From contig NC_049994.1 in assembly GCF_000003815.2 (NCBI RefSeq), positions 5,142,392 to 5,206,391 of the forward strand: 64,000 nucleotides of DNA, given 5' to 3'. Positions within the stretch are counted from its first letter, which is position 1. The number at the start of each line of letters is the position of its first letter. The translations under genes were made by a program, and so were the position numbers. Below the pieces are notes generated by a model. It saw nothing but the letters and a program-made list of their open reading frames with translations, was not told the DNA's origin and did not search any database. Source of the DNA: Branchiostoma floridae (lineage: Eukaryota > Chordata > Leptocardii > Amphioxiformes > Branchiostomatidae). Shown piece by piece: positions 3,301 through 42,200 of this stretch.

Positions 3301-6300
3301 GATTTATATTTTTCTACAAAAAGATTAGCAAGGTTATCTTGAAAAATAGAAAAAAAGATGACACACACAATCTCAAAAATTTGGCTAGTATTTCACAATA
3401 CGTTAGTGAAAGCTTACAATTTGTACAACAGTTACTGTAACAGTTACAATATTGTGTAATGTGTATGGCTTAATTCCAGTCTTTCCAACATATTCTACTG
3501 AAGGAATATTCCATCATTTTCATGAAATTTCAACATTACATTTATCTGATGACTACATATTGGAGCAGTACATTATGTTATGTCAATAACTTAGAGGCTC
3601 TCTTATAAGTCAGAGTTGATGATACGTATGACACGTTTGGAAACAGGGCAGTTGAAACTGAAACGCGAACAGCACTTGGCTCGGATGGACGATCTTTACG
3701 AACAGAGAAAGGTGGCAGAAAAGGAGAAAATTAGGAAGGAACAGAGGCAGAAGCTACTGGAACAATTGATTCAAGAAGGTTAGGGTACTAGGCAGTGGTG
3801 GCTGGTTGTGGATTAGTGGTGTTAGATCAAACTTGTTAAAGGGCGTTGGTGAACACTTGGTGTTTAGTTACTAAGTTAGTGACATCCTTTCTTCTAGAAG
3901 GTACTGCTATACACCTTTCTCATGCGGCGAACATGATAGATCGAAAAAGAGGTCAATGAGGCAAACAGACAAACTTGTCTCTAAAATCAGCTCCCATTTA
4001 GTTATCCCCCAAACCACACAAATTTTCACAATATAAGATCAAATAACAAATGATACAACTATAGTGTGATGCATCGAAAGATGTAGCAATGTAGAGTAGA
4101 GTAGACTGGTCTCATAGTCCCTTAAGAGATGCAAAATAAAAACAAATTAATGCAAATATTTGACGGACATGATGCAGCCATTCTCTTATTGTTCGATTTC
4201 CTAATTGCCATGCTATCATTGGTTGAACTGCTAATTATGATGATGGTCAGTCTTTTGTTTGCCACAATTGCCTAAGTTTCAATCTTTCAAGGCTGCTGCA
4301 GGACAAAGGTGTATTGTATGACATAATACACCAGTAGTATCAGCCTTAGCAAATATACCTACTATCCATCCTTTTGGGACAATTACTAGCACTAACTAGC
4401 TGTGAGCCAATCAAGTACCTTGTCATTGTTTCTGACAATGTTGCCAGCCAATCACATGACTGCTGACAGGTAAATTTGCAAGAGGTCACATGATTGGCTG
4501 GTGACTTACCTACTAGGAACAATTACAGGGAACAAACTCTGCTAGATGGAAGGAAGTTTAGTTGCTTTTATGAGGATGTATTTGTTGCTTTAGGGCAAGT
4601 CTGTGGTGGTCTTTGTTAACTTAATAATGTGTAAGACTTAGTCACAAAGCTGTGTTATAAGCAAACTACATCTCACGATATTACATTCAAATGCTCACAA
4701 AAAGTCATGTTCATGCAAAGGTGTTGTTTGTTCAAAGTACTGAGTATCATATTAGATGAAAGCCTATTGTATACCATATTAGATAATAGAACATTGTATA
4801 TTCCGTACTCACTAATATCTTACTTAATCTGTTGCAGATCCAACTAAGCCCAGACTAGTGGACAAAGTGGATAGATCACAGGTAAATTTTCCCTTCCTTT
4901 TCAAGAATGTACAAAATGGTGCTGATTGGCTATCCAGTTCCTTCTTCCTTGGTGCTGATTGGGCTATCCAGTTCCTTCTTCCTTGGTGCTGATTGGCTAT
5001 TCCATTCCTTCTTCCTTGGTGCTGATTGGCTATCTAATCAATTCTTCCTTGGTGTTTATTTGCTATCCTATTAATTCTTCCTTGGTGCTGATTGGCTATC
5101 CAATTCCTTCTTCTTTGGTGCTGATTGGCTATCCAATCCATTCTTCCATGGTGCTGATTGGTTATCCAATCCATTCTTCTTTGGTGTTGATTTGCTATCC
5201 CATTCCTTCTTCCTTGTGGCTGATTGGCTATCCAATCCACTCTTCCCTGGTGCTGATTGGCTATCCTATTCATTCTTCCTTGGTGCTGATTGGCTATCTA
5301 ATCAATTATTCCTTGGTGTTTATTTGCTATCCTATTACTTCTTCTTTGGTGATGATTGGCTATCCAATTCCTTCTTCTTTGGTGATGATTGGCTATCCAA
5401 TCCATTCTTCCTTGGTGCTGATTGGTTATCCAATCCATTCTTCTTTGGTGTTGATTTGCTATCCCATTCCTTCTTCCTTGGTGCTGATTGGCTATCCAAT
5501 CCATTCTTCTTTTGTGCTGGTTGGCTATGCAATCCATTCTTACTTGGTGCTGATTGGCTATCCCATTCCTTCTTCCTTGGTGCTGATTGGCTATCCAGCT
5601 AATTCTTCATTGGTGCTGATTGGCTATCCAATCCATTCTTCCTTGGTTCTAATTGGCTATCCAATTCATTCTTCCTTGGTGCTGATTGTCTATCCTATTC
5701 CTTCTTCCTTGGTGGTGACTGGCTATCCAATCCGTTCTTCCTTGGTGCTGATTGGCTGTCCTATTCGCTCTTTCTTTGTGATGATTGGCTGTCCTATTCA
5801 TTCTTCCTTGGTGCTGATTGGCTATCCTATTCATTCTTCCTCGGTGCTGATTGGCTATCCTGTTCATTCTGCCTGGTTGAGTCATATGCAAATATCGATA
5901 ATAACAGTGCCTTATTTCTCCCTAGGGTGGTGGTGACGAGTACGACCCCTGGGGGAAGGGTCAAGGGGCACCGATGTGGGACAAGTCCGGAAATGTACGC
6001 AGGTTCAAACGGACAGACGTCTATGGAGTCCCAGAGACCTACCAGTCAGATGTCAAGGTAGGTGCCTCGTTTTTGTTGTTGTTGCTTTTTTCCTTGCAAT
6101 TTTGGTCCTCATGTCAAATCTTTCTAACAATATTATAAGATCTTGTTTTTGATTAGAATTACTTCATTCTGTAGGACATAGCACATATTAGATAGAACAC
6201 TTGATCATGTGCATGATCTTTTCAACAGTTGTTCTTAATTTGAATGAAATGTGATTTATTGGGTGTATTGAATATCTAAAGAACCATGATTTTTGTGGCG

Positions 6301-9300
6301 GTAGACAGTTTTACCAAAAATTCCCATGTAATGCTAGTTCACCTTTATCCGTGGGGTGACCTTTATCCGTTGTCTTTAAAAACAGCATATTTAGGAGTAT
6401 TAAGTCTGCTGACAGTGGTTTCACATTTGCAATATTTTCAAAATAATCCGATTTGAAACCACCATCCGTTGACTTTATATCCCTCAGTGCGTTTTTTCTT
6501 ACAAAAAACGAATATAGCTTACCCTCGGATAAAGGTGAACCAACATTACAAAGTAGTAACAGTTGAATGTTGTTTATCAATGCTTTTCTTTTTCTCCCTG
6601 CTGCTCTTCCATTTGAGAAGAAGGAAAACATTCAGGTGCAGCAACTTTTATGTAGATTTCACCAGTTGTAAAACCATTGTGCTAACCAATGTGTGAGATT
6701 TTGGTCTTTTGCTGTTTTAAATTTTGATCTACTGTAATTTTAACATCCAGTGTAACAGCCCATACTTTACCCCTGGCCAAAACAAACCCAAATATATCCT
6801 GGACAGGAGTACACAATATACATGTATTCTGGCATGTTACACTGGTATTCTAAATTCAATCCCCAAGTGACATGTAGGTTATGTACTAGGATGTGTGGGT
6901 CTAATACAAGAATGTACCTTGAATTGTGAACGTCGATAAAATTCTACCGTTTAGAGTGTTGTGCATGAAACGCTCCTTGTCTTTAGTATTCTTCCTCTAG
7001 CTCCAAGATTACAAGCCTAAAGGTTAGCGATTTCATCACAAAAGTTTTGAATGTTATTTTTTTGGGGCATTACCACAGGGAGGGACCCTTGACCTGAAGC
7101 CTACTGGTGGTGGCGGGCCTCTACTCGATGATAGTGGCAAGGTCAAGTCCAAGGTCAAGAAGACAATGGTGTATGAGAATGGAGGTAAGGAATAGAACAC
7201 TATCTGACGAAGCAGCGATTCATAGTCATAGCTAAGTTCACCTTTATCCACTGGGTAACCTACATCCATGTTTTGAAAACCATGGTTTCAAATTGCAATA
7301 TTTTCACAATATTTCAGTGGACCCGACATTTTCAAAATATTGCAGTTTGAAACCACCGCCTGTCGTTGACATCCCTAAATGCCGTTTTTAAAAACAACGG
7401 AAATAGGTTACCCCTGGAATAAAGGTGAACTAACAATATACATTTGTATGTAACATCATAAACCAAAATGGATGTCTTGCCTCAAATATTACTCTTACTT
7501 TAAGTCAACTTAAACTTTCTTTTCCTGGATTAGTAACAGTAATCCCAAGCTAGTTTAGATTATCAAGATAACGGTTACTCAAGCAAATGCATAGATTTTG
7601 AGCTTGAGTATATGTCATCTTGTGTTTTTCATTACCTCGGGATATCTAGCTTTCTTTGAGTTTTGAAATACTAAATAATTTCCCTCTAGCCCATGTAGCT
7701 TTTGTTTAGTCTTTCAGTCTTGCCCATATAACTTTCATTTAACCCTTAACTCAATAATACTTTTATACCTACACTATTTTCTGTTAGCCTGGGTACCATC
7801 CGGATAGTAGTTCGCTCCGACGTTTATAATACACTATGTACAGTCACTTCTTGCTCCGACTTTTATTATATGCAATTGCTTCTCTGCTATACCATCTTGG
7901 AACCTGGACATCTCTAATGTCTGTAAGTGTCCAAATTTTGGACGAGGGCGCTGATTGGCCCTTGCATATCAGCAAATTAAGGAATGGGTTCAAGAGCTTG
8001 CTCGAACAATTGTTCCAACACCCGAAACACGCACCCAATGGCTGCTTGTGGTGGGCCTGTTGTCATCGAACGAGCGCTCTAGGACTCATTCCTTAATTCG
8101 CTCATTAAATGACGTTACCACCAAAAGGTCTGAATACGCAGTTCCCCAGAAAGGTAGCAGAAACAAACATAGCAGTGAACTGCTACCCGGATGGTACCCA
8201 GGATAATTTTCCATACCATAACCATTCCATCTTCCATCCTGACTCATGTGTGATCCCTTCTTTCCTACAGCGTGCATCACTGATCGTGATGGTAAGCCTA
8301 GTGCAGAGTCGGGCAGGTAGAGATGGGTGCAGTGCAGTGGGCACAAAACACAGGCAGCCGTAACGTAGTCACTCTAGCTGTAGGCATAGCAAGGCATTAA
8401 AGTTAGGCAATGTGTTTATCTCATGATCAGTAGCAGAATGGCAAATTTTCAAATTTTAATGACAGAATCAGTAAAAAAGGGAATAAACCCAGCTAAATTT
8501 GACGTATTGTTTGTTGGACTTACGCCAAGGTACATACAAAATTTTGGAAGAATCCATTCACAATTTATGAGCAAGTTTTATTAAGAAATTAAAGAAAAAA
8601 TGGTCGTGGTGATTATCCTGTTAGTGAGGATATTGTTTGTTGGACTAATAGCAAGGTAACTCTTAGTTTACCTTTATCCGTAGGGTAACCTTTATCCGTT
8701 CTTTTAAGAACAATGTATGTACTAGTAGGGATATCAAGTCGACAGATAGTGGTTTCAAACTACAATATCTTGAAAATAGTACAATTTGAAACTACCGTTC
8801 ATTGACTTAATATCCCTGGGTACCCTGTTAAGCAACACAATGGATATGGTTAAAGGCGGATAAAGGTGAACTAGCGTTACATACAAAATTTATGGAAGAA
8901 TCCATTGACAATTTTGATCAAATTTTGATCAAAAAATGGTCGTGATAATTATTCCTGTTAGTGAGTTCCTGTTCACTTTAAAATGAATGATAAAGAAACA
9001 AGCTGAACATGTTGTGCATAATTTATGCAAAAGCTTCACTGGTGTGCTTTCAACAGCTCCATTGCTAATTGCACAGAGTAGATAGATCACCAAAAAAGGG
9101 ATCATTGCACTGACTTCAAGTAGTTGTAGCCAGTTGGGCACAGGACTTTGAATCAGGTGATTTGGGGGACTGCAAATTAAGATGTTATCTACAAAATCAA
9201 ATTGTTGTGGCATTACACAATACACTATATAATCCTATTTGCTGTGTAGTGGGTTGCAAAACTTGAAAAATGATTTAGATTGAAAAATGAATTTTTTACA

Positions 9301-24252: not shown

Positions 24253-27200
24253 TTAAGCCCTCATCATACTGCGAGCCTTCTCCAGAATGTCCTTTCGTAT
24301 CTTTGGGTAGTTTGGGTGGACGGCCAGCACCTTGTGACAGATGTCCACTGCGTCCACGTAACGCTTCGCTTTCATGTAGTTGAAGCCAAGCTTGTAGCCT
24401 ACACAAATGGAAAGAAACACAAATACACGTAAAATGACTGCTATTCTGAATCAGTGGAATTCACGAAATACATCTACATAACATGCACAATGTATGATTA
24501 TGTGACCTCCATGACAGCCAGATGTTTCTGCTTATATACATTGTACTGCTCTATGGAAAAAAATCATTCAGTGGTGCATGTACATAGACATGTAGATTGT
24601 AAGTTCAGACCCTTGTAGTGCCTAATGGTACATAGGGCAGTGAGTTTACTTGCTGTTTCAGTAGCAGGGTATATTTTTACAAGGTTGCTAGCCTTTATAC
24701 AAAAATGTACCAATGTTTGAGGCACCTCTTTGAATATGGGACCCACATTTTACATTCAATCAGAAAGACGAGTGTAGCCCCAACCAAGATGCCCTCCAAC
24801 TACAATGTAATTGGAACCAGAATTGGAACTGTGCGGCTGCTACTCGTACCAGTTGAGCTACAGGGAAAACAGCATAATCCCTTCAGCATATAGTAGTACT
24901 GACATCAAGACTGTCCAATGAACAAATAAGGATGGAACTATATATATTTCACCAATATATGATTACACCAAAGGCAGTCACATGTTTTATGTTTTTGTCC
25001 TTGGTGCTGAAATGTTTTCAAATGATGCTACACGGCATGTTTTCGTCACTGTCAGTAAAATTTACACATTGGTATCAGTTGTGCAGGTCTCTAAATCTCC
25101 CAATAAACACAATGAAGAAAAAAAGGAAGGACCAGCTGACCTATGGTTGGGTTGGACTGGTTGCTGTACTTCCAGGCCAGTTCGTAGTTGTTGGAGGCGT
25201 CCCTGTATGCCTGCTCCTTCTCCATGATGAACCCCATGTACTCATAGGCTTTACAGCAGGACTGAGTGAAGATACAAGTTAACAATGATGAACAAAAGTT
25301 CATGTTAGATACATTTCTACTGCTGACTAGAAGTTGGACTCTGTAATGTCCATACCCCCTATAGTGTCTGTAACCCTGGTAGTGTCCATACTCCCTGTAG
25401 TGTCCGTTCTCCTTGTGGTGTACGTACCCCCCGTAGTGTCTGTACCCCCAGTAGTGTCCATACCCCCAGTACCATCCGTACCCCCAGTATTGTCTGTACC
25501 CCAAGTAATGTTAGTACCCCCTGTAGTGTCCATTCCCCCATTAGTGTCCGTACCCCTAGTAGTGTCTGTACCCTATTTAGTGCCTGCACTCCCAATAGTG
25601 TTCGTACCCCCTGTAGTGAATGTACATGTACAATGTACATACAATGTAAACCCTATAGTGTCCATACCCCCTAAAGTGACACATGTAGAACACAACACAA
25701 CGGACTTGTACCCAATAAAAATTCTGCTGCAGTTTTACCTTGTTGTGTTGCAGACATTTCTTCAGCAGTTCGCTGGCCATGTCGTACTTCCCAGACTGGA
25801 TGTACACGTCGGCCAGCAGCAGCCAGCTCTTCTCAAAATCCTCAGCATCCTGGACAGAATGGAACAAACAGTGGAACAATGTTACGGGTAAAAAATCATA
25901 CAGTTTCTGTAACTGAAAAGTCTACAACTGAACATCTCCCTGCAGTTCAAAAGAATGATACTAGAGGGACCAACTTATGTCACATCTTCCCAACCACAAG
26001 ACCTACATTGTATATACAAACCAAAAATCTTGACCATACCGGTAGCTTGTCCAGAACACGAGGACTGGTATCAAAACTGGAAGTTCTGCTGCAGTACCAT
26101 AAAAAGCCACTAGCCAAACTCTGAATCAGTTACAGTTTCTTCCTTTTTGCCAACCCAGTACCACCATACCAAATACCATCAAGATCCATCCACAACTTCT
26201 TGAGTTATGCTGTACTCAGACACACTCACCTCAAAACACATCAAATATTCAATAGTTTTTGTGAATGTTTTTGTAGTCATCATTGAGAATTTCTTCTATG
26301 CATTCTTCTGCCTATGCAAGTCAACCTTGGGGACCAACTTTGGACCAGGGCCAATCCAACTTTCCCATCTTGCAAATCGCCAGTTCCACCATCTTTAGAC
26401 TCACATCCTGTCACTCTACAATACTGAAATAATTGCAGACACACACCAAGACTAACAAACACACAGACCAAAAACAACACCAGTCCTCTATTTTCCCAAA
26501 GGTAAAAATAACCAGTTACAAATTGTTTCATTTACAAGGAGCCATCAGCAAGTTGTGTTAACTTTTTGTTCTCTCACCTCAAATGTCCAGTTCATCTTGG
26601 CGATCCGTTTGAGCTGGTTCCTGGCCCGTGGAGTCTGTTTCAGGATCATGTAGGCTGTGGCCATGCCCAGTAGAGAGCCTACATGGTCCCTCTGGAAAAG
26701 GGAACATTTCAGACTTTCAAATCTTCATAAGATTTCAACAAAGCTGAGAGAGGTCTGAGCAAGAACTTCTGTAACTGACCCTGTTCTTTCTCAGCATCAC
26801 AGTTGCTAGAAGGCATTCCAATGAATGGAAAAAGGAGAGTTGAAAAACTCGAAGTTTGTTTTTGCAGCCATACATTGCAATAATTTATCACTGTACACCA
26901 GTGCCTCCTGGCAGAATTGGATGGCAACATAGTTGTTCTTAGCATTGAATGCAGCATTAAACTTACAAGGATTTTGTACACTTTGCAATACATCTCCACC
27001 TATGAAAATACTAAATTACCATCATAATTACATGAATATTTAAATATCAATAATTAACTTTTAACGACTAATGAATCTTTTATTTGTCATAAGTTATTCT
27101 ATACTCTGTACATGATCATATCAAACATCTTAAAAATTGACTTTACAAAAACATGTAGCTGGCTTGACTGTGACAGAATTTGGGTTTCTCCCTACCTCAA

Positions 27201-30200: not shown

Positions 30201-33200
30201 AAACAAAGTTAACGTTTCATTTATCAAAATATATTTCTACTAAGTTAACCCAACAAAAAACTGTAGATCTCATACCTCAAACTGTGAAACAGCTTAAGTT
30301 GTTAGGATATAGGAGTATTCTTTTACACAATCAGTTAGTCTTATCTAATGACGTTTCGATGTCTGTCAGACATCTTCCTCAGAGCTTCTAACTGGAGTTT
30401 TCTGCTTCTCACCACTACATGTAGCCGATGTAGGTGGCGCTTTTGCGGTGAGAAAACAATCCCAAACGTGGCTGACTTTGTAGCCCCCTTTGTCCAGGTT
30501 CATCGCTGGGGTAGACTAGTTAGAACCTCTGAGGAAGATGTCTGACAGACATCAAAACGTCAGCAGGTGAGAATAACTGGTTGTGTAAAAGAAAACTCCT
30601 ATGTCCTATGACCTACAACCTGATGAAACTATTTTCGGAAGCTAAAGATGTTGTGAATTTCTTCAAAATCTGCCTTACCTGGAGACCTCTCCAACAGTTG
30701 TTGGTAGTGGAAGGTGGCCTGGTCATACTCATTCTTACGGAACATCAGATCAGCCATCATCTAAAACATATCAGAACCACATTAATTGACGAATCATGGG
30801 ACATAAATTATCATTATTACATAACTTAAATGCATCATGTATGTACACCAAACAAGCCAGTCGAATCATTTTTGGATCAAATCAAAATAAATCAAATCAA
30901 ATCAAATAATGGATTTTCACTTAGAAAGATCCCAAAGCTATGGACACAGATGCAACTGTCCTATTGCTGTTGTAAGACGTGATAAAATACTACAATATAA
31001 TTATAATGGTCATGACGTGTTAACATCAGGGGATAAGTTTACCATAGTGGCAGCATCATTCTCCTTGTCTGTCTTCAGCAGGATGGCACACTGGTGCTGA
31101 CAGGCATCCAGGTCATCCTGGGCAAGGTACAGGCGAGCCAACTCCAGCATAGCCTGGAACACAGGACAGTGGGGATAACTTAGCAAAGTTTTACTCTAAC
31201 ATTGTCTGTTTTCAGCAGGATGGCACACTGGTGCTGACAGGCATCCAGGTCATCCTGGGCAAGGTACAGGCGAGCCAACTCCAACATAGCCTGGAACACA
31301 GGACAATTACATGACTGTGTAGAACAACTTAGCAAGGTTTTACTCCAACATAGCCTGGAACAGAGGAAAGTTGGGACATTAAGGTTAGGTTGGAACAAAG
31401 GACAGTAGTGACAACTTAACAACATTTTACTCTAACATAGCCTGGAACATAGGACAGTTGGGACAACTTCGCAAGGTTTTACTTTAAGATAGCCTGGAAC
31501 AAAGGACAGTTGGGACAACATAGCAAAGTTTTACTCCAACATAGCCTGGAACAAAGGACAGTAGGGACAACATACATGTAGCTTGAAACTGTGAGCAGCA
31601 AAATGCACCCGTCCTGCATTCAGAATTGCCCTGAAGAAGGTGACAGATGGTCACGAAAACGTTGGTGCGAAGAAACCAATGTAAAAATAGTATCTTTATT
31701 CAGTGACGTACCAACCTGGTGAACCTATTCGTGGATGATAAGATTAAGTTTTTTTGCAGCCTTACCTTGCCATCGTTATCACTGTACACCAGCGCCTCCT
31801 TGTAGAATTTGATGGCCTTGTCATAGTCCCTCTGCTCCTTAGCATGCTGGGCCATCTGGCTACAGATGCTGTATGGAGGAAAGGAACAAAGGCCTTTATT
31901 GTTAACACCTCAGGCCTGTATAGAGCAGGTAGAACCTTACAGTCCCTTCTTCTTTTCTTATCATCAATTGAGGTGAAGCCTGATGTTTTTTTTCAAGTAT
32001 TACTGCAGTTTTGCTATGACTTGCGTTTTCATATAGAATACCCCGCTAACCCAAGAAAAATATCATTGAATAAAAACATGAGAATAAAAAAATGATATCC
32101 TGACCTGGTAGCCAACTGTTTCTGAGCGGGTACACCATCCGGCTGCTCCACATGGACTCTCTTCAGCACCCTACATGTCACAGAGAATATTTACATTACA
32201 TACATGTACCTGCATGTTTATCAGGGTAGAGAACAACAAAGTAATACTAGAAAGGCCGACATTTGCTTAAGAGCAAATACAGCATATTTCAGCCATACCC
32301 CTTCCTACGCAACATTGGACTGTTCCAAATCACCCCTGCGCAAAAATGGAACATCCTCTTAACAGTACATTATCCCCCCAAGTGGACTGGTATTGTGAAT
32401 TGATTCCAGGTAAAAACAGAGCTTGCTTCTATTTTTCAGAAAATGACAATAATCACACCTTCCATTCAGAAAATTTTCATCATGACTGAAAATTGTTGAA
32501 TGACTTCATGTAATGTCATTAACAATTTTCAGTACGATAACTAGGTGTAAGTTTAAAAAAGTATAAGCTCCTTGTAATGTGGGTACATTTATTATTGCAG
32601 TGAACTTTTTTTATTCAAGTAGGGCATACGATTTAATAATTATCAAGCAGGTGCAGGTACTGTAGGAGCGTTTGTTTTCTTCAAGCTGTAAAACTGTTAA
32701 ACTGTTTTACTTTGTATGCAATCAGCCATCGAGCCTATTCTTATTTTAGTTTAACAACTCAGTCCTGCCAGACCCGGAAGATGCGATTGAACCTTGTTCG
32801 AGGATTTATTTTCGTCTGTCTGGTCAGTCTGTTCATACCCTGGCGCTGAGAGTGTTTTATTGGGCTGAAACTCTGGCAGTTTAAAGTTACTTACAATTTA
32901 AATGTTCAAAGTTTATGTCAAACAACAACAGCACTAGGAACACATACATTTGCTCTGGAGAAAATACAGCAGTTTTCGCAAGTTCCAGTCCAGTGATAGA
33001 AATGTGGCCACTATAGACAGGTGGTCACTATAGAGAAAAATGCTGATCTATTGACTAGGAGCCATACGTTACACATGATTTCAGTGTACACTGATCATTA
33101 ATCATATAAACATTGCACAGGTAAGCCAATTGTTTAGATGTACAATTAAGTTCAAATAATTCTGAATGGAAATATTGATGAGAAAATAATCATTCTCGCC

Positions 33201-36200
33201 ACTGTCTAACTTATAATTACGTATCAAAACTAAACGCAGATTTTCTAACTAACGCACCTTTCGCCGACTTCATCAAAGGACCGCCGGCTATCAATCAAAC
33301 ACGGCTGTTGATTAGACTTAGAGTTTCAAACAGTCATGTGCTGTGTGCCAGTTGACAGCGAACTTCATGCTACGTGATGTTTTACATTGCTTGGACCTTC
33401 TTTCCTACAGCGGTGCTTCTACAAAATATTTAGACTGTAACACTGAGTCCCACATGTTTTATAAAATAGAATTTGACGCAGAACAGCGTTTTTTGCTGGG
33501 TATTTTTCTTGAAACATGTCCGTGGGAATATCAGCGAGGCGGCGACGTAGGGATATCAGACCGTCAACAAAAGTCGCACGGCGGCTAACGGCGCAGCGAA
33601 GATACTAGCGCTATAAATAAGCGCTTCAACTAAGGATGGCAACCCGTACAATATTTTTGTATACTGTTGAGCTAAGTAAAGTTTGTTGTTTATGAGGTTT
33701 TAGTTGTCTTTGAAGCTTTGACCCGAAATATTTTAAAGTCAAACTGCTGAAGAGAAGTAAGTGACTGCTACGATTATCGTAGATATGGCCCTAAAAAAAC
33801 TGATAAAAGAAGCCTTCTCAATAGTCTAAAATGCAAGAGCTTCCGGGGGGGCTTTGCCCACCTGGGTCTCCCCTACAGTGGCCCTGCCCCTGGACCCCGC
33901 CAGGGACATTCGGCGGCCCCCGGACCCCTGTCCGACGCTTTGAAAAAATCCTGGCGAGAAGTCTGTACGGCCTGAGTCTTCAAGTTAACGTATTGTGTGG
34001 CCCCGCTTATGAATATTAATAAGCCTTCGTTTTCCTCTTCGCTGATTGGCTGAACCATTAATTGAATTAACTCTTCCTGCCGGCTAGACGCAGGTGCAGA
34101 TGTCGGCTCTGTGGGGTGAACGTCCGAAAGGTCATGGCATGGAGAACGAAAGAAAACCAATTTCCCCTTTAAAAAGTGCTGTAATTAAGCCTTTTACAGT
34201 ACTTTATGCCAAAAATTTTACTTGGATCATTTTACCAACTATCTTATGCCTATCTATACCAAATGTTACTCATACCAGGGTACAGGGGTGCAAAATATAT
34301 CGTTATAAGACCGTCAACAACAGTCGCACGGAGCTAACAGCGCAGTGAAAATACCATCGCTAGCGTTTCAACTTCGGATAACAAGTTATAAGTACTGTTG
34401 AACTCAGTAACGTTAAAGTTTGTTTTTAGTTGCCTTTGACGGTTTGACCTGAAATAGTGTTACGCTAAACTCCTGAAGAGAAGTTAAGTGACTGCTGAGA
34501 TTATCATCGATATCACCTAAGAACTAAATAAATACAATATAAAGCCTTCTGAATAGTCTAAAATGCGAGAGCCTTAGGCGGGCTTCGCTCCCCCTGGCGG
34601 GAACACTGCTATATACGGGATCATGAGGCCCCGCTTATGAATATTAATTAGCCTTTGGCCTCCTCTTCGCTGATTGGCTAGGTCTTTGATTCAATTAACT
34701 CTCCGGCTGACGCGCACAGGTGTGGCTCTGTGCGGGGTCACGGAAGGTCACGTCAGGAGGCCAAAAGAAAACAAATTTCCCCTCAGAAAAGTGCCAAAAT
34801 TAATCATTCTAAAGTTGTTTATGTCAAAAATTTTACTTGAATCTTGTTACCAAGTATCTAATGCCTATCTATACCAAATGTCAGGTCATTTAATTGTAAT
34901 ACCAGGGTACAGGAGCCAAAAGTGTCCTTTTTTGGTCAAAAATTGGCCAAAAATCGCAAAAATAAGCATTTTGTTGCACTGTACACCAAAAGTGTTATTG
35001 AATTTATATGAAGAGATTATCAAGGCACATCTGTGTCAAATTTCAGCTCATTCGGTTGCAATACCAAGGTACAGGAGCCAAAAGTGTCCTTTTTTGGTCA
35101 AAAATTGGTCAAAAAATCGCAAAAATAAGCATTTTGTTGTACTGTACACCAAAAGTGTTATTGAATTTATATGGGGGCATTATCAAGGCACATCTCTGTC
35201 AAATTTCAGCTCATTTGGCTGTAATACCAGGGTACAGGGGCCAAAGGTGTCCTTTTTTGGTCAAAAATTGGTCAAAAAATCGCAAAAATAAGCATTTTGT
35301 TGTACTGTACACCAAAAGTGTTATCACATTTATATGGGAGCATTATCAAGGCACATCTCTGTCAAATTTCAGCTCATTTGGTTGTAATACCAGTGTACAG
35401 GGGCCAAAATACACAGTTTTGGTCTAAAATTGACCAAAAAATCTCAATAAAATCATTTTAGAGGCAGATATGAAAAAACTGAGAAAAAAGCACCAAGGTA
35501 TTGGCCCTTTCTACCCCTGTGCCAAATTTAAGGTCATTCAGTCCAGGAACGGCGGAGATGAATCACTTTGAAGATTTGACAGGAGAAAGAAAGAAGAAAG
35601 AAACACTAGAAAGGCCGACATTTGCTTAAGAGCAAATACAGCATATTTCAGCCATACCCCTTCCCACACAACATTGGACTGTTCCAAATCACCCCTGCGC
35701 AAAAATGGAACATCCTCTTAACAGTACATTATCCCCCCAAGTGGACTGGTATTGTGAATTGATTCCAGGTAAAAACAGAGCTTGCTTCTATTTTTCAGAA
35801 AATGACAATAATCACAACTTCCATTCAGAAAATTTTCATCATGACTGAAAATTGTTGAATGACTTCATGTAATGTCATTAACAATTTTCAGTACGATAAC
35901 TAGGTGTAAGTTTAAAAAAGTATAAGCTCCTTGTAATGTGGGTACATTTATTATTGCAGTGACCTTTTTTTATTCAAGTAGGGCATACGATTTAATAATT
36001 ATCAAGCAGGTGCAGGTACTGTAGGAGCGTTTGTTTTCTTCAAGCTGTAAAACTGTTAAACTGTTTTACTTTGTATGCAATCAGCCATCGAGCCTATTCT
36101 TATTTTAGTTTAACAACTCAGTCCTGCCAGACCCGGAAGATGCGATTGAACCTTGTTCGAGGATTTATTTTCGTCTGTCTGGTCAGTCTGTTCATACCCT

Positions 36201-39200
36201 GGCGCTGAGAGTGTTTTATTGGGCTGAAACTCTGGCAGTTTAAAGTTACTTACAATTTAAATGNNNNNNNNNNNNNNNNNNNNNNNNNNNNNNNNNNNNN
36301 NNNNNNNNNNNNNNNNNNNNNNNNNNNNNNNNNNNNNNNNNNNNNNNNNNNNNNNNNNNNNNNTAGGAACACATACATTTGCTCTGGAGAAAATACAGCA
36401 GTTTTCGCAAGTTCCAGTCCAGTGATAGAAATGTGGCCACTATAGACAGGTGGTCACTATAGAGAAAAATGCTGATCTATTGACTAGGAGCCATACGTTA
36501 CACATGATTTCAGTACACTGATCATTAATCATATAAACATTGCACAGGTAAGCCAATTGTTTAGATGTACAATTAAGTTCAAATAATTCTGAAGAGAAAT
36601 ATTGATGAGAAAATAATCATTCTCGCCACTGTCTAACTTATAATTACGTATCAAAACTAAACGCAGATTTTCTAACTAACGCACCTTTCGCCGAATTCAT
36701 CAAAGGACCGCCGGCTATCAATCAAACACGGCTGTTGATTAGACTTAGAGTTTCAAACAGTCATGTGCTGTGTGCCAGTTGACAGCGAACTTCATGCTAC
36801 GTGATGTTTTACATTGCTTGGACCTTCTTTCCTACAGCGGTGCTTCTACAAAATATTTAGACTGTAACACTGAGTCCCACATGTTTTATAGAATAGAATT
36901 TGACGCAGAACAGCGTTTTTTGCTGGGTATTTTTCTTGAAACATGTCCGTGGGAATATCAGCGAGGCGGCGACGTAGGGATTTCAGACCGTCAACAAAAG
37001 TCGCACGGCGGCTAACGGCGCAGCGAAGATACTAGCGCTATAAATAAGCGCTTCAACTAAGGATGGCAACCCGTACAATATTTTTGTATACTGTTGAGCT
37101 AAGTAAAGTTTGTTGTTTATGAGGTTTTAGTTGTCTTTGAAGCTTTGACCCGAAATATTTTAAAGTCGAACTGCTGAAGAGAAGTAAGTGACTGCTACGA
37201 TTATCGTAGATATGGCCCTAAAAAAACTGATAAAAGAAGCCTTCTCAATAGTCTGAAATGCAAGAGCTTCCGGGGGGGCTTCGCCCACCTGGGTCCCCCC
37301 CCCCCCACACACACACAGTGGCCCTGCCCCTGGACCCCGCCAGGGACATTCGGCGGCCCCCGGACCCCTGTCCGACGCTTTGAAAAAATCCTGGCGAGAA
37401 GTCTGTACGGCCTGAGTCTTCAAGTTAACGTATTGTGTGGTCCCGCTTATGAATTCGCTTTCCTCTTCGCTGATCGGCTGAACCATTAATTGAATTAACT
37501 CTTCCTGCCGGCTAGACGCAGGTGCAGATGTCGGCTCTGTGGGGTGAACGTCCGAAAGGTCATGGCATGGAGAACGAAAGAAAACCAATTTCCCCTAAAA
37601 AAAGTGCTGTAATTAAGCCTTTTACAGTACTTTATGCCAAAAATTTTACTTGGATCATTTTACCAATGGAACTATCTTATGCCTATCTATACCAAATGTT
37701 ACTCATACCAGGGTACAGGGGTGCAAAATATACCGTTATAAGACCGTCAACAACAGTCGCACGGAGCTAACAGCGCAGCGAAAATACCATCGCTAGCGTT
37801 TCAACTTCGGATAACAAGTTATAAGTACTGTTGAACTCAGTAACGTTAAAGTTTGTTTTTAGTTGCCTTTGACGGTTTGACCTGAAATAGTGTTACGCTA
37901 AACTCCTGAAGAGAAGTTAAGTGACTGCTGCGATTATCATAGATATGCCCCTAAGAACTGATACAATATAAAGCCTTCTGAATAGTGTAAAATGCGAGAG
38001 CCTTAGGCGGGCTTCGCTCCCCCTGGCGGGAACACTGCTATATACGGGATCATGAGGCCCCGCTTATGAATATTAATTAGCCTTTGGTCTCCTCTTCGCT
38101 GATTGGCTAGGTCTTTGATTCAATTAACTCTCCGGCTGACGTGCACAGGTGTGGCTCTGTGCGGGGTCACGGAAGGTCACGTCAGGAGGCCAAAAGAAAA
38201 CAAATTTCCCCTCAGAAAAGTGCCAAAATTAATCATTTTAAAGTTGTTTATGTCAAAAATTTTACTTGAATCTTGTTACCAAGTATCTAATGCCTATCTA
38301 TACCAAATTTCAGGTCATTTAATTGTAATACCAGGGTACAGGAGCCAAAAGTGTCCTTTTTTGGTCAAAAATTGGTCAAAAATCGCAAAAATAAGCAATT
38401 TGTTGCACTGTACACCAAAAGTGTTATTGAATTTATATGAAGGAATTATCAAGGCACAACTGTGTCAAATTTCAGCTCATTCGGTTGCAATACCAAGGTA
38501 CAGGAGCCAAAAGTGTCCTTTTTTGGTCAAAAATTGGTCAAAAAATTGCAAAAATAAGCATTTTGTTGTACTGTACACCAAAAGTGTTATTGAATTTATA
38601 TGAGGGCTTTTTCAAGGCACATCTCTGTCAAATTTCAGCTCATTCGGTTGTAATACCAGGGTACAGGGGCCAAATGTGTCCTTTTTTGGTCAAAAATTGG
38701 TCAAAAAATCGCAAAAATAAGCATTTTGTTGTACTGTACACCAAAAGTGTTATCAAATTTATATGGGGGCATTATCAAGGCACATCTCTGTCAAATTTCA
38801 GCTCATTTGGTTGTACAGTTTTGGTCTAAAATTGACCAAAAAATCTCAATAAAATCATTTTAGAGGCAGATATGAAAAAAATGGGAAAAAAGCATCAAGG
38901 TATTGGCCCACTCTACCCCTGTGCCGAATTTCAGGTCATTCGGTCCAGGAACGGCGGAGATGAATCACTTTGAAGATTTGACAGGAGAAAGAAAGAAAGA
39001 AAGAAAGAAAGAAACATTACGAATACAATATATTTCACCATACTATGTATGGCTGAAATATAAATATCTGGGACAACAGCAAATTTGAACCATCAGCCAA
39101 CAGTAGTCCTATTAATAATCTAAACAACCCAGCCTTACAAATGTACCTAACCTGTGTGTTCCTAGCCTTACCTAACCTGTATGTTCCTAACCTTACCTAG

Positions 39201-42200
39201 CCTGTGTGTCCCTAGCCTTACCTAGCCTTTGTGTTCCTAGCCTTACCTAGCCTGTTTATCCCTAGCCTTACCTAGCATGTGTGTCCCTAGCCTTACTTAG
39301 TCCTTGTGTCCCTAGCATTACCTAGCCCGTGTGTCCCTAGCCTTACCTAGCATGTGTCCCTAGCCTTACTTAGTCCTTGTGTCCCTAGCCTTACCTAGCC
39401 CGTGTGTCCCTAGCCTTAGCTAGCCCGTGCGTCTCTAGCCTTACCTAGCCCGTGTGTCTCTAGCCTTACCTATCCTTGCCTAGTCTGTGTGTCCCTAGTC
39501 TTACCTAGCCTGTGTCTCCCTAGCCTTAACTAGCCTGTACCCAACATTCAAAGCCTGTGTGTCCTAGCCTTAACTAGCCTGTGTGTCCCTTACTAAGCCT
39601 TAACTAGCCTGTGTGTCCCTTACTAAGCCTTACCTAGCCTGTGTGTTCCTTACTAAGCCACTTAGCCTGTGTGTGATCCCTAGCCTTACCTAGCCTGTGT
39701 GTTCCTTACTTAGCTACCTAGCCTGTGTGTGATCCCTAGCCTTACCTAACCTGTGTGTCCCTTACTACGCCACCTAGCCTGTATGTGATCCCTAGCCTTA
39801 CCTAGCCTGTGTGTCCCTTACTAAGCCTTACCTAGCCTGTGTGTTCCTTACTAAGCCACCTAGCCTGTGTGTGATCCCTAGCCTTACCTAGCCCGTGTGT
39901 CTCTAGCCTTACCTATCCTTGCCTAGTCTGTGTGTCCCTAGTCTTACCTAGCATGTGTCTCCCTAGCCTTAACTAGCCTGTACCCAACATTCCTAGCCTG
40001 TGTGTCCCTTACTAAGCCTTACCTAGCCTGTGTGTTCCTTACTAAGCCACTTAGCCTGTGTGTAATCCCTAGCCTTACCTAGCCTGTGTGTCCCTTACTA
40101 AGCCTTACCTAGCCTGTGTGTTCCTTACTTAGCTACATGGCCTGTGTGTGATCCCTAGCCTTACCTAGCCTGTGTGTCCCTTACTAAGCCACCTAGCCTG
40201 TGTGTGATCTCTAGCCTTACCTAGCCTGTGTGTTCCTTACTAAGCTACCTAGCCTGTGTGATCCCTAGCCTTACCTAGCCTGTGTGTCCCTTACTAAGCC
40301 TTACCTAGCCTGTGTGTGATCCCTAGCCTTACCTAGCCTGTGTGTCCCTTACTAAGCCTTACCTAGCCTGTGTGTTCCTTACTAAGCCACCTAGCCTGTG
40401 TGTGATCCCTAGCCTTACCTAGCTTGTGTGTCCCTAGCCTTACCTAGCCTGTGTGTGATCCCTAGGCTTACCTAGCCCGTGTGTTCCTTACTAAGCCTTA
40501 CCTAGCCTGTGCGTCCCTAGCCTTGTTCAGGGCTCCTAAGGCCTCCTCGATCTTCCCTGCCTTGTGGTGCACCTTGGAGAGGAGAACCTGGCAGCGAGTC
40601 TCGTCCATCAAGGCCTGCAGGTCTGAGGCTACAGGAAAAAAATATAGAAATATAATATATTAACATAAGGAATATAGGAGTACATTATGGAATATTTCCT
40701 TTCTCTACTACCTCTGCTTGAATAGTTCAAATGTATCATCAAGAAAAATGATTTCTTATTGATGAACATTTGCAAAATGGCAGATGAGCCTTATTATTTT
40801 CCAGCTTTTTTGGTGAATTAAAAGGTTGCAATATAGTGACATAACATCAAACATTCTTAGTATTACTAAGATTGTTTATCAATATCAATATCATCATACA
40901 AATTTCATATGGAAAAGTTATTTTCAACATTATAGTTTATGTTCTTATTAGCTTATATGTAAGCACAGGTTTTAGCCATTTTCAAGAAAATGTAAGGCCA
41001 CTTGAATTGAAATGAGGATTTTCAGGTGGGGCTGACCTTTCAACTTTGACCTTACCTGTTTCCTTCTCCAGTGCCACCCTCAGTACTTTCTCTGCCTTGT
41101 CGTACTGTCGCAGTCGCAGCAGCAGCTCTGCCAGGTCGTACCGCAGGAAGTTCTGCCCGCCAGACTTCAACGCAGCCTCGTAGTAATTGATTGCCTGAAA
41201 CATTTTTCAACAAAAAAATCGACCATTATAACATATTTTCTTGCTTCATTGATAATTGTGAATTTCTTACTGATTCTGTTTAATGCATTTTACTGGCTCG
41301 CATGAGGCAATAAACATGTAGCAGAATATTGAAGGCAGGAAATGAGATAGCCTATTCTCAGACCTTTCTAGGACCTTTGACCTAACTTCCTGTCAGTGTT
41401 CTCCACATACCCAGCATGTAGAAACCAACCCCTCTATAGCATTCAAGCAACTTTGGACAGTCGGACACACAAGTAAACAAACACACAGACATGCTGAAAA
41501 CAAAACCTTCATACATGGAAGTAACATGTCTCAGACTGTTGAGTAGAATAGCTAAGTTGGTAATGAAACAAGAAAAATATATTTGTTCACATTCTGGCCA
41601 TGAATAAACAAACTGTTACACACATATTCAAGTTAACACCGGGTACTATACCTTGCCATAGTTGTGAGTCTTCACCAAAGCCTGCCCAATCTTGCTGGCC
41701 AGGGTGGCATCCCGTGGGTTCCTCTTCAGAGCAGACTCGTACACCTCTATTGCCTTCTCAGGCTGGAAACAAAGAGACATGAGTCACATATTAAACAACA
41801 TAGAAATAGGAGGAATACATCTGATTCATTAACTGTAGGGGTGCCACACAAAAAATTCAAACAATACTAGTAACTGTTTGAACCTTACAGTATATCTGAA
41901 TGTGTTTTGTATCTATGCAATAGATTTTGAAGAAAGCAGGCCCCTCCAACAGTCATGCCAAAGAAAATTGATGTTGGGTTTCTAATTACTTTCCTGAAAA
42001 AGATTTTTGTAGGTACATGTATGTAGGGATTTTTTTTCTTTTTCATATTTCAGCCAGCAACTACAATATAAACTGCATCAGGACACTGGTATTTTCAACA
42101 CCTTTTATGACTATTGTCAAACATAATTATACATTACACAATTGCCTGTGGTCAAAAGGTTAGGGCTAGCAGGTACATGTGTTTGCTTGTGTCGGTCAGG

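Follow-up and report, generated by a model that had tools for sequence, protein, structure and literature searches.

The IFT139/TTC21B gene in the 64,000-nucleotide stretch of Branchiostoma floridae DNA that we analysed (the window) raises a question about splice-site choice. One of its exons ends in a sequence that is repeated, together with its 5' splice site, in a tandem array following directly. How could such an array arise at an exon edge, and how would one donor be taken among many that are identical to it? With identical rival sites in a natural gene, site strength is removed and position, exon definition and local context are left. The features at this exon, in window positions and with a slash at the exon-intron boundary, are as follows.

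40502..40629, minus strand: IFT139/TTC21B exon of 128 bp (exon 24 of the original prediction), placed by translation and PDB alignment to TTC21B
40496..40501, minus strand: true 5' splice site GTAAGG (TAG/GTAAGG), directly after exon 40629..40502
39141..40501, minus strand: donor array of about 50 units, ~1.36 kb, delimited by TRF and splitting at the donor
32105..32170, minus strand: next exon, starting G/GTGCTGAAG, placed by PDB alignment and translation, with its probable end at CAG/GTCAGG

The joined peptides of 12 exons of this minus-strand gene matched PDB chain 8bbe_D with an E value of 6.1e-156, identifying it as IFT139/TTC21B. The end of exon 40629-40502 and its donor read AAGGCTAGGGACGCACAGGCTAG/GTAAGG, the exon tail being AACAAGGCTAGGGACGCACAGGCTAG. 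The exon ends with AG, and the G of the next exon completes the split codon AGG. The protein at this edge is kept in the family: 8bbe_D (TTC21B) has ARELQARVLKRV where the lancelet has ARDAQARVLKRV, and the residues across the junction are ARELQAR/VLKRV in human and ARDAQAR/VLKRV in this gene. This is the family fit that had been predicted for the coding copy, which is the genuine edge of an exon in a conserved gene. Because the coding copy is conserved in the protein family, the array appears to have grown out of the exon edge; the exon copy would be the older one and the source of the array.

The repeat unit itself spans the exon-intron boundary. The 25-bp unit AAGGCTAGGGACACACAGGCTAGGT is identical to the last 23 exon bases at 22 positions, and TRF reported overlapping arrays between 39141 and 40524, which bears out the claim that the exon end and its GTAAGG donor are one unit of the array. 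Plain 25-bp units lie at the far end, and repeating 28/28/30-bp composites, which make up most units there, lie near the exon. The 29-base exon/donor segment shares 28 of 29 bases with its closest later copy. The segment recurs at 14 places with at least 25 of its 29 bases matching; most of these are in the far half, and one is near the exon at 40441.

Equal donors do follow the true one, as predicted. The array holds 74 GT dinucleotides, and the donor 9-mer TAGGTAAGG is present at 28 of them, the true donor counted; the 27 identical donors downstream are all within the array. The true donor scored 10.2 with a general donor matrix and 10.4 with a matrix derived from the donors of the IFT139 gene, which was built on 26 donors picked by eye, one of them absent from the sequence as entered. 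By these two matrices, 28 and 31 array sites, respectively, equalled or exceeded the true donor. In the rest of the intron (6,965 bp) no site reached the true-donor score by the general matrix, and no equal donor was found.

A translation check showed what splicing at the later donors would do to the message. Splicing beyond the true donor produces AGG TAA, an arginine followed by a stop. The open frame is kept by one of the 28 identical donors, the true one, and every later donor would add a stop to the mRNA. The same gene carries a second array at a later exon, at its acceptor, so that donor and acceptor repeats occur together in one gene as had been proposed.

31154..31571, minus strand: acceptor array upstream of the later exon (exon 27 of the original prediction), delimited by TRF and copy listing
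31201..31290, minus strand: partial duplicate of the later exon inside the acceptor array, 87 of 90 bases identical, reading into a stop
31043..31153, minus strand: later exon with the true acceptor at its upstream edge, placed by translation and PDB alignment

The acceptor array contains five intact upstream TTCCAG/GC acceptors (31545, 31493, 31441, 31354 and 31290) and one broken copy. Four of the upstream acceptors lead into AMLE-stop or AILK-stop, and the fifth runs through most of the exon before it meets a stop; an open exon is obtained from one of the six intact acceptors, the exon-proximal one. At both arrays, then, the exon-proximal site is probably the sole productive site. Pairing across the exon would pick out just these sites; the opposite ends would be favoured by pairing across the intron. 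The protein family and the open frames together suggest that the true donor is used, and array donors could be used at a low level.

Arrays of this kind have been published in lancelets. Passages of PMC3087553 and PMC3902484 describe "mirages" as minisatellite-like tandem repeats across an exon-intron boundary, with AG/GT signals in many copies, and place them at both 5' and 3' exon boundaries. The mirage genes given there are Adh3, TnC, the globins BflGb6 and BflGb9, and PGBD5, the last added, and TnC named, by PMC3902484. In what PMC3087553 presents of them, mirages occur at both edge types, are unstable in length, and gave RT-PCR results suggesting regular splicing. The 25-30-bp units of IFT139 are within the 10-72-bp range of Adh3 (passages of PMC3087553 and PMC3902484), while the BflGb6 mirage, as described there, has 3-6 units of 150-160 bp as compared to about 50 units at one edge of IFT139. 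The claim that the pattern was undescribed therefore has to be withdrawn in view of these mirages at both edges and of the donor minisatellite of human IFI6 outlined in PMC4526556. Exon-edge arrays are already known as a kind, and there appear to be more of them in this genome. Set against the mirages described in those passages, IFT139 is a new gene with both edge types in one gene, accompanied by a first genome-scale count; we found no genome-wide census of mirages in the literature searched. What is added here is evidence for numerous arrays in the genome and an argument from reading frames for the exon-proximal sites being the only productive ones.

We consider it very probable that the donor array is an exon-edge minisatellite of the mirage kind, grown from the exon end and donor, with the exon-proximal donor kept and the array functionless. 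A 25-bp segment comprising the last coding bases and the first bases of the 5' splice site would have been duplicated in tandem into the intron. Slippage or unequal exchange may then have expanded it to about 50 units and given the observed 28/28/30-bp higher-order pattern, while selection on the protein would hold the exon copy. The spliceosome most likely stays with the exon-proximal donor through exon definition, that is, pairing across the short exon. The array donors would be silent, or would yield mRNA in which a stop immediately follows the exon and which would be degraded. The acceptor array may be the mirror image of this arrangement, only the exon-proximal AG opening the frame. The most likely status of the donor array is thus that of a sequence without function.

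The strongest competitor, which we nevertheless regard as improbable, is that the array is a working splicing regulator that tunes the amount of productive IFT139 mRNA through competition of its units for U1 or through hnRNP A1-like proteins bound to them (UAGGGA); the array donors would then yield stop-containing mRNA. The array strand does carry 23 TAGGGA and 68 TAGG words. TAGGGA begins within 35 nt of 17 of the 28 donors, and the first TAGGGA of the true donor is at +38. According to PMC4932749, a donor in human cells is repressed by hnRNP A1 sites lying 10-40 nt downstream. However, TAGGGA sits within the unit, so its number merely counts units. Four other donors likewise have their first TAGGGA at +38, and the true donor is therefore not special in this spacing. 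The regular splicing that RT-PCR suggested for other lancelet mirages (in the account of PMC3087553) also argues against a regulator. The hnRNP A1-type words may possibly exert an extra influence on donor choice.

We also considered whether the repeats of two haplotypes had been collapsed or expanded in the assembly. The same intron contains a ~3.4-kb tandem duplication (96.8% and 98.7% identical in the two main alignments) with a 100-N gap, so the local assembly may be imperfect and the unit number in it may be wrong. An artefact is nevertheless very unlikely as the source of the array, which has many distinct unit types and ordered composites and resembles arrays at other exons.

The likeness of array and exon end was measured against the other edges of the gene. 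For the 58 edges of 29 exons, a window of 32 bases straddling the edge was compared with some 1.5 kb of adjacent DNA. Many of the edges had approximate positions, which may have hidden weak cases, and one exon of the 29 had been placed manually. Two of the 58 edges gave 30/32, namely the donor of exon 40502..40629 and the acceptor at 31153, as compared to 15-19 of 32 for the other 56. Mid-exon controls gave 14-20, except for one 32/32 that is the partial duplicate of the exon at 31153. The further tandem arrays beside exons of the IFT139 gene had no match to exon edges in this 58-edge scan. A 333-bp array query against the 513-Mb assembly, in a search that ignores simple repeats and very common words, gave six matches, all inside the donor array and none elsewhere. 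Thus, although minisatellites are common in this genome, import of the array or its independent origin in the intron with an accidental likeness to the exon end is hardly credible: the 22 of 23 matching exon bases are adjacent to and in register with the donor, 56 of 58 edges lack any such match, which led us to reject chance likeness, and the lack of matches elsewhere in the 333-bp search led us to reject import. A repeat occurring widely and unlinked to the exon, the observation that the original prediction had named as fatal to it, was not seen.

Outside lancelets, the human IFI6 (6-16) minisatellite was reportedly described with multiple splice donors by Turri in 1995, a work cited in PMC4526556, PMC2572611 and PMC3618361. 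Passages of PMC4526556 state that this minisatellite supplies several donors, of which two downstream repeat units are used. IFT139 is like IFI6 in that a minisatellite at an exon end offers several donor sites. In contrast to IFI6 as portrayed there, where use of downstream repeats gives isoforms, each later donor of IFT139 gives an in-frame stop and only the true one of the 28 is open. Tandem duplication of sequence that bears a donor, as a route to intron gain, is the subject of PMC4974935 and is discussed as a model in PMC3087553. As in that model, a piece with a splice signal was duplicated in tandem; unlike it, IFT139 forms no new intron and the copies remain inside an existing one.

How common exon-edge arrays are was approached in two ways. 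In a sample of 20 stretches of 10 kb placed by hand (196.5 kb without N), we found one donor array (L011) and one acceptor array (L028). The L028 exon has a Pfam NTR domain (E 2.9e-5); the L011 exon, recognized by splice signals and a ~63-codon open frame alone, had no Pfam match. No AGGTAAG excess was present in these 20 stretches, AGGTAAG and its backward control both matching only the L011 array, which contains both words.

The whole assembly (513,431,437 bp, 431 contigs) was then covered by a query of three copies of a word spaced by 12-42 bases. AGGTAAG triples gave 1,231 matches (705+526) as compared to 243 (122+121) for the word read backwards; the same-composition word GGATAAG gave 352 and its reverse 56. 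Among the matches listed (about the first 100 per word), there were 20 separate AGGTAAG arrays in 27.3 Mb and 8 GGATAAG arrays in 104 Mb; the densities differ 9.5-fold, over territories that were not the same for the two words. Because 16 of the 20 AGGTAAG arrays listed fall within the first 9.2 Mb of C1, the evenness assumed by the p-value of 1.2e-8 fails. Single-word frequency (71 vs. 29 per Mb per strand, from a small sample of 37 and 15 occurrences in 259 kb) accounts for part of the 9.5-fold difference and leaves about fourfold. Against GAATGGA, a commoner single word (116, also from a small sample), the AGGTAAG excess by matches was about eightfold. The ratio of rows to arrays gives a rough figure of about 250 AGGTAAG arrays in the genome. 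The acceptor word TTTCAGG showed a weak excess (253 matches vs. 102 backwards), and its 23 arrays in about 319 Mb have a density much like that of the GGATAAG control. Because this excess is weak, the donor enrichment is not extendable to acceptors from the word test.

These counts invite the tentative idea, which we rate as somewhat less probable than its negation, that in this genome 5' splice sites are hot spots of minisatellite birth, with hundreds of genes harbouring arrays built from their own exon end and donor. If this is true, each array would amount to a natural experiment that forces the spliceosome to choose among many identical donors; the exon-proximal pick would be needed each time, and exon definition would become testable gene by gene. 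This would also point to arrays being born in connection with transcription or splicing. If many genes carry such arrays, as the census hints, long-read RNA could serve to measure the exon-proximal rule across genes and to reveal the beginnings of new introns and alternative exons.

As to how an array begins, AAGG stands at both ends of the 25-bp IFT139 unit and could have provided a start for slippage of this seed. The first (30-bp) unit of IFT139 had no short identity of the exon breakpoint to the donor hexamer (0 left-contiguous bases). By this crude test, which for several of the arrays used a wrong unit length or ran across small indels, 0 left-contiguous bases were counted in 15 of 20 other arrays and also in L011; with short identity missing in 15 of 20, no general birth mechanism is supported.

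The 20 C1 AGGTAAG arrays were examined for coding exons by scanning one reading frame each of 17 against Pfam (L031, L037 and L044 were left out) and five of the 17 also against the PDB. Strong homology was found at four of the 20 arrays and weak homology at four more, an association with exons that has no measured background from control arrays. Matches were absent or insignificant for the nine arrays L032, L033, L034, L035, L038, L039, L041, L043 and L046. The homologies are listed below.

TMEM237 exon with donor array: E 7.4e-27, match running to the last residue before the donor
SNF2 exon with donor array: E 1.1e-19, match running to the last residue before the donor
Kynurenine 3-monooxygenase exon with donor array: E 6.8e-20, match running to the last residue before the donor
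Dynein AAA_8 exon with donor array: E 1.2e-10, match ending at most 11 residues from the donor
L042, TPR, weaker support: Pfam 0.0023 (below cut-off) and PDB TPR chains
L045, MAP4K1-like, weaker support: 9.3e-4
L048, RFWD3-like, weaker support: 4.2e-6, yet below the Pfam cut-off
L029, dynein motif, weaker support: 0.0096 and no Pfam match, at a GTGAGT donor lying upstream of where AGGTAAG first occurs

The check on whether other genes here have exon-edge arrays thus came out positive, with the L028 exon and the TMEM237-, SNF2-, dynein- and kynurenine-monooxygenase-like exons. A simple ungapped comparison of the bases on either side of the first AGGTAAG donor showed, for 9 of the 20 arrays, that the first unit following it is at least 80% identical to the bases preceding it.

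In the IFT139 (TTC21B) intron that holds the donor array, a segment of about 3.4 kb is also duplicated in tandem. The duplicated copies and the other features observed in the window are as follows:

32228-35603, first copy of the duplication of about 3.4 kb
35588-39006, second copy of the same duplication
36264-36363, gap of 100 N, within the second copy
31201-31290, near-full copy of a later IFT139 exon, immediately upstream of that exon
26806-27015, minus strand, open frame
4917-5874, minisatellite of 29 copies of a 33-bp unit, outside the mapped IFT139 exons

The two main alignments between the intron copies gave identities of 96.8% and 98.7%. This arrangement may represent either a recent duplication or two haplotypes that were set in tandem.

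The copy of the later exon is identical to that exon at 87 of 90 bases, and it has its own acceptor and is without a clear donor. It is possible that this copy represents an early stage of exon duplication. A run of 10 residues read from the open frame is similar to a stretch of 11 residues of IFT139 from another exon, and the frame is possibly an exon fragment copied to another place in the gene.

Donor arrays were also observed outside the window. Because 16 of the 20 triple AGGTAAG arrays listed up to 27.3 Mb on one contig of the same assembly (C1) fall within its first 9.2 Mb, donor arrays may be concentrated toward one chromosome end. Among the 20 hand-placed 10-kb stretches elsewhere in the genome, L011 carries a donor array at 6075-7455, with about 26 units of 50 bp. 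The exon preceding this array is open, acidic and of low complexity, and the exonic part of the 50-bp unit, as judged by eye, comprises only about 8-9 bases.
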